Below, piece after piece: positions 56,558-62,487 of a stretch of 64,000 nucleotides of DNA. The position numbers and the translations under genes were made by a program. The stretch is from Geomonas oryzisoli (lineage in GTDB: Bacteria > Desulfobacterota > Desulfuromonadia > Geobacterales > Geobacteraceae), in contig NZ_CP076723.1 of the NCBI RefSeq assembly GCF_018986915.1, positions 372,001 through 436,000 on the forward strand, read 5' to 3'. Every line of letters begins with the position of its first letter. Position 1 is the first letter of the stretch. A model generated the notes under the pieces. The model saw only the letters and a program-made list of their open reading frames with translations, was not told the origin of the DNA and searched no databases.

Positions 56558-58327
56558 CTAGCCGGTGATCTTCTTGTAGAGGTCGTTCCCCTTGTCGTCG
56601 ACCAGGATGAAGGCGGGGAAGTCCGCCACCTCGATCTTCCAGACCGATTCCATCCCCAGTTCCGGGTAATCCAGGCATTCCACCTTCTTGATGTTCTCGT
56701 GTGCGAGCAGTGCCGCCGGGCCGCCGATGGAGCCCAGGTAGAAGCCGCCGTGCTTCTTGCACGCGTCGGTCACCTGTTTGCTGCGGTTCCCCTTGGCGAT
56801 CATGATCATGGATCCGCCGTTGGACTGGAGCAGGTCGACGTAGGAGTCCATGCGGCCGGCGGTGGTGGGGCCGAAGGAGCCGGAGGCGCCCCCCTGCGGT
56901 TTCTTGGCGGGGCCGGCGTAGTAGACCGGGTACTTCTTCAGGTAGTCCGGGAGACCTTTGCCCTGGTCCAGCCGCTCCTTGAACTTGGCGTGGGCGATGT
57001 CGCGGGCCACGATGACGGTGCCGTAGAGGGAGAGCCGGGTCCCGACCGGGTGCTTGCTTATCTGGGCGAGCACGTCCTTCATGGGCTGGTTCAGGTCGAT
57101 CTTCACGCCGCCGGCATTCTTCAGGCGGGCGGTCACCGGGAGATATTTCCCCGGGTCGCGCTCCAGTTCCTCGAGCCAGATCCCGTTTTTGTCGATCTTC
57201 GCCTTCACGTTGCGGTCGGCGGAGCAGGAGACCCCCATGCCGATCGGGCAGGAGGCGCCGTGGCGCGGCAGGCGGATCACGCGCACGTCGAGGGCGAAGT
57301 ACTTGCCGCCGAACTGCGCGCCGTACCCGCACTTGTAGGCTGCCGCCATGACGCGCTGCTCCAGGTCGAGGTCGCGGAAGGCCTGGCCACCCTTGTTGCC
57401 GGTCGTGGGGAGGGTGTCGAGGTACTTGGTGGTGGCGAGCTTGACGGTCTTCAGGCAGGCCTCGGGCGAGGTGCCCCCGATGACGAAGGCGATGTGGTAG
57501 GGGGGGCAGGCGGCGGTGCCGAGGGTCTTCATCTTCTCGACCAGGAACTTCTCCAGGCTCTCGGGATTCAGGACCGCCTTGGTTTCCTGGTAGAGCATGG
57601 TCTTGTTGGCCGAGCCTCCCCCCTTGGCGACGAACAGGAACTTGTAATCCATGCCGCGGGTGGCGTTGATGTCGATCTGCGCGGGCAGGTTGTTGCCCGA
57701 GTTGGTCTCCTGGTACATGTCCAGCGGGATGGTCTGCGAGTAGCGGAGGTTCTCCTCGGTGTAGATCTGGAAGACGCCCGCGGAGAGGTACTGCTCGTCG
57801 TTGCCGGTCACCAGGACCTGTTGCCCCTTCTTGGCGAAGATGGTGGCGGTGCCGGTGTCCTGGCAGAGCGGGAGCTCGAACTGCGCGGCCACTTCGGCGT
57901 TGCGCAGAAGCGCAGTCGCGACGTAGCGGTCGTTGTCGGTGGCCTCGGGGTCGGACAGGATGGCCGCCACCTGCTTCAGGTGGGCCGGGCGCAGCATGAA
58001 GCTCACGTCCTTCATCGCGGCGTTGGCCAGCAAGGTGAGCGCCTTGGGGTCGACCTGGAGCATCTGCTTGCCGTCGACCTTGATGGTTTTGACGTACTTG
58101 TCGCTGATCAGCCTGTATGTGGTCTGGTCGGGGCCGAGCGGGTACGGGTCCTGGACCTTGAAGGCGGGGGCCTTGCGATCACCCCCCCTCGGGGCGACCT
58201 GCGGTTCCGGGGACTCCTCGGTGATCGTTTCCGCCTGGACCTGGCTGTGCAGCCCCATCAGGGTGACTGCGGATACGGCCGACGCGGTTGCACTCTTTTT
58301 CAGAAAATCCCTTCTGCTGAGCGACAT
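56558..58327 (-). CDS. Class I fumarate hydratase with Tat signal peptide (exported fumarase)
   Basis: 589 residues. Fe-S dependent hydro-lyase interconverting malate and fumarate. The N terminus [21 protein letters not shown] carries the Tat consensus SRRxFLK at residues 4-10 and ends in an AxA-like site (QVQA), so the folded enzyme should be exported. The three [4Fe-4S] ligands are Cys155 (PLCQDTG), Cys274 (AACPPYH) and Cys360 (ASCPIGMG); their 119 and 86 spacings are close to those of E. coli FumA (119 and 94). [10 protein letters not shown] and the C-terminal GGPAALLA region also fit. ATG 58327 has AGGAGG six bases upstream. A sigma-54-like promoter and two palindromes precede it. An exported class I fumarase is very unusual. 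Confidence 0.9.
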
Positions 58328-58389
58328 CAACTACCTCCTGAAAATTTTGATTCACCCTCCCCCGCAGGAGACGGCAATGCGGGACTTAT

Positions 58390-58406
58390 GAGCACAGGTG
58401 ATGCCA
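58390..58406 (-). promoter_or_regulatory. Sigma-54-like promoter of the exported fumarase gene
   Basis: On the minus strand TGGCATCACCTGTGCTC has GG and GC separated by 10 bp, the -24/-12 spacing of sigma-54 promoters. A near-identical element precedes the flavocytochrome gene (60613-60629), differing in two adjacent bases. The predicted start site is about 58380, giving a leader of about 53 nt. The match to TGGCACG-N4-TTGCA is imperfect. Confidence 0.6.
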
Positions 58407-58486
58407 CCTTTTAATGATGGTGATGAAGTTGCCGGTATCACGACGGTTTGTGCGGCCGCTACACCGAAACTGCTCCGCCGTCAGGC

Positions 58487-58501
58487 ATAACCGCAGGTTA
58501 T
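58487..58501. promoter_or_regulatory. ATAACC-N3-GGTTAT palindrome, site 1
   Basis: ATAACCGCAGGTTAT, centre 58494, about 114 bp upstream of the predicted fumarase start site and 182 bp upstream of the TSUP gene start. Perfect inverted repeat of ATAACC around three bases. Confidence 0.75.
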
Positions 58502-58569
58502 GGCGTCGGGGTGGGTGCGGCGGCGGATCGCCGGGGGAAACGGAGCTGAAACGGCAGGATGGAGCTTCT

Positions 58570-60461: not shown

Positions 60462-60518
60462 GGTCGGCGCTAACTGGCCGAAAAGACAGCCGCTTTCCTC
60501 ATGAGCCGTGCTGGCCGC

Positions 60519-60533
60519 ATAACCTGCGGTTAT
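60519..60533. promoter_or_regulatory. ATAACC-N3-GGTTAT palindrome, site 5
   Basis: ATAACCTGCGGTTAT, centre 60526, about 113 bp upstream of the predicted flavocytochrome start site, the same distance as site 1 from the fumarase start site. Confidence 0.75.
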
Positions 60534-60612
60534 CGTTCGCGGTCGTTGTCAATTAGAGCCACGCGGCTAAAGTTATCATTAATTCGGCACCTTGGCCTGT
60601 TGCACCGGCATT

Positions 60613-60629
60613 GGCATCACTCGTGCTCT
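60613..60629 (+). promoter_or_regulatory. Sigma-54-like promoter of the flavocytochrome gene
   Basis: TGGCATCACTCGTGCTC with GG at 60614-60615 and GC at 60626-60627, spaced by 10 bp. Fifteen of 17 bases are shared with the fumarase element. Predicted start site about 60639, leaving a leader of about 88 nt before ATG 60727. Confidence 0.6.
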
Positions 60630-60726
60630 CAGGATGGGGTCGCCGGGGGCATCATCGCCCTCCCCGGCGGCGCATACCACGGAGCGGAACACGGGTCACC
60701 ACCCGAGACAACAAGAAAGGAGAACG

Positions 60727-62487
60727 ATGATGAGTTCGAGGATAGGCATTGTGATGGCGGCATTGCTGGTGCTGGTCTCCGCCACGGTCCTGTGGGCGGG
60801 GGGCACGGAACCGCTGGCGAAGCTGCACCAAGGGAAGGCGACCTGCGCCGACTGTCACGGCAGCAGCAAGAAGATCAGCGTCGACGACAGCGAGAAGGGG
60901 GTTAACAAGAACTGCGTCGGCTGCCACGGAACGCTGGCAGAGATGGGGAAGAAGTCCCAGGAGGAGGTGAACCCGCACAAGTCGCACCTGGGTGACATCA
61001 ACTGTACCGCCTGCCACCACGGCCACACCGCGTCGTGGGCCTACTGCCTGAGCTGCCATCCTTTCGACATGAAGATCGCCGGCGGCGGCGCGACGCCGAC
61101 CAAGGCCACTGCCGTGACCAAGCCCAGGAAGCGCGCCGAGAAGGCGGACGTCGTCGTCATCGGTGCCGGCGCTGCCGGCTTCACTGCGGCCATTACTGCG
61201 CATGACGCCGGTGCCAAGGTGGTGATCATCGAGAAACAGCCCATCACCGGCGGCAACAGCATGCTCGCGGCCGGCGGGATGAACGCGGCCGAGACCCCCT
61301 TCCAGAAGGAGAAAGGGATCGCCGACTCCGTCGACCTCATGTACAAGGACACCATGACCGGCGGCGGCAACCTGAACGACCCGGCCCTGGCCATGGTGCT
61401 CGCCAAGAATTCCGCAGGCTCGGTCGCCTGGCTCACCGGCCTTGGCGCCGACCTGAGCGATGTGGGCCGTATGGGGGGCGCGAGCGTCAACCGGACCCAC
61501 CGTCCCAAAGGGGGCGCCGCCGTCGGTGCCCACATCACCGAGGTGCTGCGCAGAAACGCCGACCAGCGCAATATTGACATCCGCGTCAACAGCAAGGTCG
61601 TGAAGATCCTCGAGGACAAGAAGGGTCGCGTGACCGGCGTCCGCGTCGCGGGCAAGCATAGCGGCGAGTACAGCATCAACGCGAAGGCGGTCATCATCGC
61701 GGCCGGCGGCTTCTCGGCCAACCCGGAGCGTGTCGCCTACTACCGCCCGGAATACAAGGGGATGACCACCTCGAACCAGCCCGGCGCCACCGGGGACGGC
61801 ATCGACCTCGGCACCGCCGTCGGTGCGGACTTAAAGGACATGAAGGAGATCCAGATCCACCCGACCGTCGCCGCCGGCAGCCGCACCCTCATCACCGAAG
61901 CGGTGCGTGGTAACGGCGCCATCCTGGTGAACCACGAAGGAAAGCGCTTCGTCAACGAGCTCACCACCCGCGACAAGGCTTCCGCCGCCATCCTGGCACA
62001 GAAGGGGCAGTCGGCGTACCTCGTCTTCGACGACGGCGTCCGCAAAAGCCTTAAGCAGATCGACGGCTACTTCCACCTGAACCTGGTGCAGCAAGGCGCC
62101 ACCCTGAAGGACCTCGCCGCGGCGATCAAGGTTCCGGCCGATGCCCTGGAGGCGACCGTTGCCGGCTACAACAAGGGGGTCGACGAGAAGAACGACGCCG
62201 AGTTCAAGCGTCCCGACCTGCCGCGCGCCCTGCGCACCGCCAAGTACTACGCCATCGAGGTGAAGCCGGGCGTGCACTACACCATGGGCGGCCTGAAGAT
62301 CACCACCGGCAGCGAAGTGCTGGCCAAGGACGGCAAGAGCATTGCCGGCCTGTTCGCGGCCGGCGAGGGGACCGGCGGCGTCCACGGCAAGAACCGTCTG
62401 GGGGGGAACTCGATCTCGCAGACCATCACCTTCGGCCGCATCGCGGGCGAGAACGCAGCCAAGTTTGCCGGGAAAACCCGTCCGTAG
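60727..62487 (+). CDS. Periplasmic tetraheme flavocytochrome c fumarate reductase
   Basis: 586 residues, Shewanella FccA-like. A Sec signal (IGIVMAALLVLVSATVLWAG) is followed by four heme motifs CADCH, CVGCH, CTACH and CLSCH starting at Cys40, 63, 93 and 107, then a flavin domain from VVVIGAGAAGFTAAI. The catalytic set is complete, with spacing identical to that remembered for the Shewanella enzyme: His378, Glu391, Arg394, Arg415 (TTRDKAS), His517 (GVHYTMGG) and Arg557 (NRLGGNS). These match H365, E378, R381, R402, H504 and R544 at a constant offset of 13. ATG 60727 follows AAGGAG. Reduces fumarate to succinate in the periplasm with electrons from cytochromes. Confidence 0.95.
   Translation: MMSSRIGIVMAALLVLVSATVLWAGGTEPLAKLHQGKATCADCHGSSKKISVDDSEKGVNKNCVGCHGTLAEMGKKSQEEVNPHKSHLGDINCTACHHGHTASWAYCLSCHPFDMKIAGGGATPTKATAVTKPRKRAEKADVVVIGAGAAGFTAAITAHDAGAKVVIIEKQPITGGNSMLAAGGMNAAETPFQKEKGIADSVDLMYKDTMTGGGNLNDPALAMVLAKNSAGSVAWLTGLGADLSDVGRMGGASVNRTHRPKGGAAVGAHITEVLRRNADQRNIDIRVNSKVVKILEDKKGRVTGVRVAGKHSGEYSINAKAVIIAAGGFSANPERVAYYRPEYKGMTTSNQPGATGDGIDLGTAVGADLKDMKEIQIHPTVAAGSRTLITEAVRGNGAILVNHEGKRFVNELTTRDKASAAILAQKGQSAYLVFDDGVRKSLKQIDGYFHLNLVQQGATLKDLAAAIKVPADALEATVAGYNKGVDEKNDAEFKRPDLPRALRTAKYYAIEVKPGVHYTMGGLKITTGSEVLAKDGKSIAGLFAAGEGTGGVHGKNRLGGNSISQTITFGRIAGENAAKFAGKTRP

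Follow-up and report, generated by a model that had tools for sequence, protein, structure and literature searches.

The window analysed here, 64,000 nucleotides of the Geomonas oryzisoli genome (contig NZ_CP076723.1, positions 372,001–436,000; features are given in window coordinates), carries a gene for a class I (FumA-type, [4Fe-4S]) fumarate hydratase of 589 residues, predicted to be exported by the twin-arginine translocation (Tat) pathway (56558–58327, minus strand). Divergent from it lies a gene for a four-haem flavocytochrome c, an Fcc3-type periplasmic fumarate reductase by its domain and NCBIfam matches, motifs and solved relatives (60727–62487, plus strand). An earlier note, made from this sequence without database searches, had remarked on their proximity, and the start codons are indeed 2.4 kb apart, with genes for a TauE-family permease and a LigB-type protein between them. 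Position and shared control sequences tie the fumarase to the fumarate reductase and to a dicarboxylate transporter, which suggests malate respiration outside the inner membrane.

Textbooks place fumarases in the cytoplasm or the mitochondrion, and those of class I are oxygen-labile iron–sulfur proteins. The open reading frame (ORF) here (56558–58330, minus strand) encodes a single chain in which the Pfam domains Fumerase (263.5 bits) and Fumerase_C (274.4 bits) are fused. Its start codon is probably the ATG at 58327, with the ribosome-binding sequence AGGAGG 6 nt upstream, and the stop codon ends at 56558. The only alternative start found within codons 1–80 is ATG24, inside the hydrophobic core of the signal, which leaves no plausible start for a cytoplasmic form; the same two facts rule out a misassigned start. 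The Tat signal named in the earlier note was borne out: the first 32 residues (58232–58327, minus strand; cleavage point placed by eye) score 23.3 bits with TIGR01409, above its cut-off of 16.7. It is not a chance extension of the ORF, since homologues in two further genomes of the order, G038 (same family) and G116 (another family), and in the betaproteobacterium Formivibrio citricus carry one too. The G. oryzisoli genome, a single 4.85-Mb contig, encodes TatC. Its PF05681 fumarases number exactly two: besides the window copy there is one at C1:3616388, which has no signal and stays below the TIGR01409 cut-off. With this second, cytoplasmic fumarase present, export would not rob the tricarboxylic acid cycle, and the objection that the exported enzyme is the only fumarase of the genome falls away.

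In its two-domain [4Fe-4S] architecture, ligand cysteines and active-site motifs, the exported protein resembles the FumA/FumB-type class I enzymes; it differs from ordinary ones in having a Tat signal and a linker and in forming a clade apart from cytoplasmic copies. Alignment with Leishmania fumarase LmFH (5l2r), whose cluster ligands we take to be C133/C252/C346, places the cluster cysteines at C155, C274 and C368 (numbered from the ATG). The earlier note was thus right about 155 and 274 but wrong in choosing C360, a neighbouring cysteine whose place is taken by Leu in Formivibrio. All four Tat-fumarases have intact cluster cysteines and active-site motifs, and in five active-site motifs examined the exported and cytoplasmic enzymes of the genome differ at one residue, Lys/Gln in AKGNRS(K/Q)QVT. 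Both miss the NCBIfam FumA equivalog cut-off of 1105 bits, the exported copy with 877 and the cytoplasmic one with 951.1, and failure of the latter marks the model as narrow; the exported enzyme does pass the cut-offs of the domain models TIGR00722 and TIGR00723. Annotation as the tartrate dehydratase TtdAB was ruled out by the fused FumA-type chain and by there being just two PF05681 matches in the genome.

The flavocytochrome has four CxxCH motifs and all five motifs looked for (HPT, TEAVRG, TTRDKAS, HYTMGG and NRLGGN), confirming the haem sites and Shewanella-type catalytic residues that had been noticed earlier; its Sec-type signal was recognised by eye. The best solved relatives are flavocytochrome c fumarate reductases of Shewanella (1d4c, E = 1.7e-194; 1qjd, E = 6.8e-183). 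It scores 534.9 bits with TIGR01813 (flavo_cyto_c; cut-off 285.45) and falls slightly below the cut-off of equivalog NF005064 (529.1 vs 542). Four CxxCH motifs, the flavin adenine dinucleotide domain and substrate-binding motifs are common to this protein and Shewanella Fcc3/FccA, from which it is set apart by a dcuB-type promoter signature and by its pairing with an exported fumarase. Motifs and dcuB context would agree with fumarate as substrate rather than another alkene.

A promoter signature shared with dcuB

Pattern matching found the same arrangement before both genes. The fumarase has a sigma-54 (–24/–12) element, TGGCATCACCTGTGCT (58391–58406, minus strand), with a 15-bp palindrome, ATAACC-N3-GGTTAT, 95 bp from the –24 element as a candidate activator site (58487–58501) and a second palindrome farther upstream (58570–58584). 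Before the flavocytochrome lie a palindrome with one mismatch (60428–60442), another (60447–60461) and a proximal one (60519–60533) that is 93 bp from the –24 element of the sigma-54 element TGGCATCACTCGTGCT (60612–60627, plus strand). At up to two mismatches the palindrome occurs six times in the window against 0.50 expected, and five of these copies are in the two promoter regions.

Exact palindromes number six in the whole genome: two before the fumarase, two before the flavocytochrome, one before the dicarboxylate carrier gene dcuB, and one inside a long ORF (G000:1624276) that we take as chance rather than as a regulatory site. G038 has two, for fumarase and flavocytochrome, and G116 has four, two before a dcuB-fumarase-fccA operon and two before another flavoprotein gene. 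The reversed pattern, used as a control, gave none in any of the 10 genomes searched. Of the 26 promoter regions examined, 22 have a palindrome with at most two mismatches at 91–95 bp from a –24/–12 element with at most three; the weakest of these elements, with three mismatches, is that of the G038 fumarase. Four regions depart from this: that of TauE, which has no such element, those of the two genes internal to the G116 operon (fumarase and flavocytochrome), and that of dcuB in G012, for which no palindrome with up to two mismatches was found at this spacing.

A composite of half-site and element, GGTTAT-N74-82-TGGCAY-N6-TGCT, was present in 73 of the 141 genomes of the order (reversed control, 2). 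Nine hand-chosen composite sites outside the window genome were read, and all nine have a DcuA/DcuB carrier directly downstream. ATAACC-N3-GGTTAT with a sigma-54 element is a mark of dcuB-linked promoters (window 58391–60627 and loci L220, L123, L176 and L222). Beside dcuB is a two-component pair, a sensor with SBP_bac_3, HisKA and HATPase domains and a regulator with receiver, Sigma54_activat and HTH_8 domains; we infer that this response regulator reads the palindrome and is the candidate activator.

Fumarate reduction in Geobacter is attributed to DcuB and the membrane complex FrdCAB. In G. sulfurreducens, dcuB is RpoN-dependent by primer extension (PMC2725144), and in G. bemidjiensis dcuB and dctA each lie behind a solute-binding sensor kinase and a response regulator (PMC2996986). 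The dcuB gene, RpoN control and the adjoining two-component pair are as in known Geobacter fumarate respiration, to which the present locus would add both a reductase and a malate-dehydrating step in the periplasm. The available portions of those two accounts of dcuB control contain no tie to a flavocytochrome or an exported fumarase. New here are the promoter signature common to fumarase, flavocytochrome and dcuB, and the extension of fumarate respiration by a predicted exported fumarase.

Two further occurrences concern the signature itself. A fourth composite site in the window genome (L260 ~7717; G000:C1:3219616-3219716) is flanked by a paralogous pair of solute-binding sensor and response regulator and by a gene for a GlnQ-like ATP-binding cassette transporter ATPase, and there are look-alike composite sites in several genomes of the genus. 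The other flavoprotein gene preceded by palindromes in G116 encodes an FCC-like protein 42% identical to that of the window, beside the same kind of two-component system (L222 6778-6918; G116:C1:4059777-4059917).

Distribution of the Tat-fumarase

Tat-fumarases were found in one of 19 genomes of the genus, two of 48 of the family and three of 141 of the order. The three score 1218–1290 bits, all other matches in the order at most ~1037; each of the three genomes also encodes another fumarase, in every case without a signal. Among the best 80 of at least 577 relatives in a collection of named genomes, Formivibrio citricus (L034 7413-9143) was the only carrier of a Tat signal, and the exported enzyme is its only FumA-type match at E<=1e-200. 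In a sample of 395 genomes of the phylum, 24 matches besides the window copy were obtained at E<=1e-296, all starting at model position 37 or later, and no Tat motif was seen in the 11 N-termini read, including that of the best scorer (G459, 1049 bits), a sampling that can miss a rare case. Among 300 genomes drawn evenly from the order of Formivibrio, eight matched at E<=1e-200, and all eight N-termini were read; the signal was present in Formivibrio alone. Script flags for a possible Tat signal at L053, L059, L077, L086, L090, L115 and L163 came from arginine pairs that no signal-like stretch follows, and these were left out of the counts. The earlier note had regarded a general lack of the signal among homologues as telling against its proposal. 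Class I fumarases generally do lack it, but all four members of the enzyme's own clade have it.

That clade was recovered in two trees of the mature part, with rows hand-chosen from the fetched loci. A quick method on 78 rows joined the four Tat-fumarases with a Shimodaira–Hasegawa-like approximate likelihood ratio (SH-aLRT) support of 98, and a careful method on 47 of these rows gave the same clade (bootstrap 99, SH-aLRT 98). Formivibrio is a long row in both trees (0.41 and 0.48), so the other three are placed with more certainty. The quick tree groups G038 with G116, of another family, at support 81, a weak hint of transfer. The fumarase row of Geotalea sp. SG265 (L040) equals that of G030, which belongs to the same family as the window genome, in keeping with Geobacteraceae as that family.

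The gene stands beside that of an Fcc3-type flavocytochrome c in all three order members, in three different arrangements. At the G038 locus, a sensor kinase and a sigma-54 response regulator separate the fumarase (minus strand) from a flavocytochrome (plus strand) 81–82% identical to that of the window. G116 has a DcuA/DcuB carrier, the Tat-fumarase and a flavocytochrome (73% identical) in tandem on one strand, and in G125 a carrier and a flavocytochrome (75.5%) are in tandem without a fumarase. Three different arrangements together with shared promoters rule out a chance neighbourhood.

Orthologs of the flavocytochrome are present in 11 of the 19 genus genomes and in G038, hence in 12 of 48 in the family. 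Six of the ten other genus loci read (G006, G002, G013, G003, G011 and G018) retain most of the gene order of the window without the fumarase, except that the LigB-type gene was not found at the G003 locus nor the kinase gene that adjoins the fumarase in the stretch read from G011; the G010, G008, G007 and G004 loci are more rearranged. At the syntenic place in G006 (L124 8820-8891) is a remnant matching the last 24 residues of the fumarase at 88% (53 bp at 94%), followed, in kept order, by 16 bp identical to an internal segment of the gene. The fumarase gene was thus once present there and has been lost at least once.

Predicted periplasmic use of malate

Export, cluster insertion, activity and direction, and likewise the identity of regulator and inducer, are what we infer from the sequences, and the proposed course would be as follows. 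The fumarase would fold with its [4Fe-4S] cluster in the cytoplasm, be exported by Tat and convert L-malate to fumarate in the periplasm. There the four-haem flavocytochrome c, supplied with electrons by periplasmic cytochromes, would reduce the fumarate to succinate. Fumarase, flavocytochrome and dcuB genes would make up one sigma-54 regulon, most likely switched on by the pair beside dcuB, with its solute-binding sensor and sigma-54 activator. The outcome would be an electron sink that depends on malate but not on the import of a dicarboxylate. We give a probability of roughly 70% to the reading that the products of one such regulon dehydrate malate in the periplasm and reduce the resulting fumarate to succinate, beside the DcuB/cytoplasmic route. 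The earlier note had proposed the same passage from malate through fumarate to succinate, and the findings support it. We incline, less firmly, to the fuller claim of a complete extracytoplasmic malate-to-succinate module, in which a tricarboxylic acid cycle enzyme with a clade of its own has moved to the periplasm, shares a regulon with dcuB under a periplasm-reading sensor, and allows malate to serve as terminal acceptor without entering the cytoplasm. As DcuB shares the promoter signature, periplasmic and DcuB/cytoplasmic routes may run side by side; with the exchanger co-regulated, malate use without dicarboxylate import is possible, and import is also compatible.

The fumarase of Desulfovibrio alaskensis is presumably of the ordinary non-exported kind, unlike the window enzyme. 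Malate is nevertheless an electron sink in that organism as proposed here, reduced to succinate through fumarate by fumarase and fumarate reductase, according to PMC4215793. PMC4427408 describes another periplasmic flavoprotein respiration, the Tat-exported methacrylate reductase of G. sulfurreducens AM-1, which has the Tat motif RRDFLK as here but differs in having no hydratase and in belonging to another reductase subfamily. A search of the open-access literature (PMC text), with subscription journals mostly outside its scope, found no exported fumarase. If the proposal is true, fumarate respiration would come to include malate, an acid common in plants and soil, with no need for transport, and the palindrome with its sigma-54 element would define a testable regulon for C4-dicarboxylate respiration in relatives of Geobacter.

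Several points weigh against this reading. The fumarase equilibrium favours malate; removal of fumarate by the flavocytochrome would pull the unfavourable dehydration forward. Ten of the 12 flavocytochrome-bearing family genomes lack the exported fumarase, one of them keeping only the remnant, so the enzyme is dispensable. The association with flavocytochrome c on which the earlier note laid weight holds in the three order members, and the fumarase and flavocytochrome of the window have a promoter signature in common with dcuB, but the association does not hold in Formivibrio, in which no flavocytochrome relative was found at E<=1e-30 (leaving the link at three of four) and no palindromes at up to one mismatch. 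Because the composite site also precedes the GlnQ-like gene, its reader may respond to compounds other than C4-dicarboxylates as well. Ratios of non-synonymous to synonymous substitution (dN/dS; Nei-Gojobori, three order members) were 0.09–0.16 for the mature part and 0.26–0.32 for the signal, a constraint that speaks for the reading, but the signal estimate, from 31 codons, is indicative only, and the linker behind the signal, at 0.31 and 0.51 with the third pair saturated, is less constrained. The substrate could also be another hydroxy acid.

Of the competing explanations, reversal fares best, and it is still unlikely: the exported fumarase would hydrate fumarate to malate in the periplasm, and the malate would enter the cell, for instance through DcuB against succinate, as a carbon and electron source, with the flavocytochrome an independent branch on the same substrate. 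The equilibrium would suit this direction, as would the presence of dcuB in the G116 operon and of its promoter signature in the window genome, and G. bemidjiensis on fumarate transiently excretes malate (PMC2996986). Yet with a cytoplasmic fumarase the cell can already produce malate from fumarate that it takes up, so that export would add little, and the adjoining flavocytochrome drains fumarate. We consider it more doubtful still that the exported enzyme acts mainly on citramalate or tartrate, with the flavocytochrome reducing the matching alkene. Class I fumarases are promiscuous, and relatives of the flavocytochrome reduce methacrylate and urocanate (PMC4427408). The five active-site motifs are those of the cytoplasmic fumarase except for the one Lys/Gln difference, however, the flavocytochrome is closest to fumarate reductases, and the partners, in operon and by promoter, are C4-dicarboxylate carriers of the DcuA/DcuB kind. 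Least of all do we credit a recent or decaying acquisition with an enzyme inactive in the periplasm, for which the presence in one of 19 genus genomes and erosion in another might speak, given purifying selection on mature part and signal, a fumarase promoter that matches that of the flavocytochrome, and a single clade that persists in a betaproteobacterium as well as in two families of the order.

Neighbouring genes

The TauE/SafE-family permease gene (58676–59413, plus strand; domain match, start codon chosen by eye in an ORF that opens at 58583) shares its upstream palindromes with the fumarase, but a sigma-54 element of its own was not found. The LigB-type gene (59445–60224, minus strand) encodes a 4,5-DOPA-extradiol-dioxygenase-like protein by domain and NCBIfam matches and is probably a bystander. 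Membership of either in the module is not supported, as neither has a match at the G038 and G116 loci. The LigB-type gene at 59445–60224 sits in a presumably anaerobic lineage. On the other side, a gene for a hybrid PAS/GAF histidine kinase with a receiver domain (53787–56525) adjoins the fumarase and was found at five of the ten other genus loci read.

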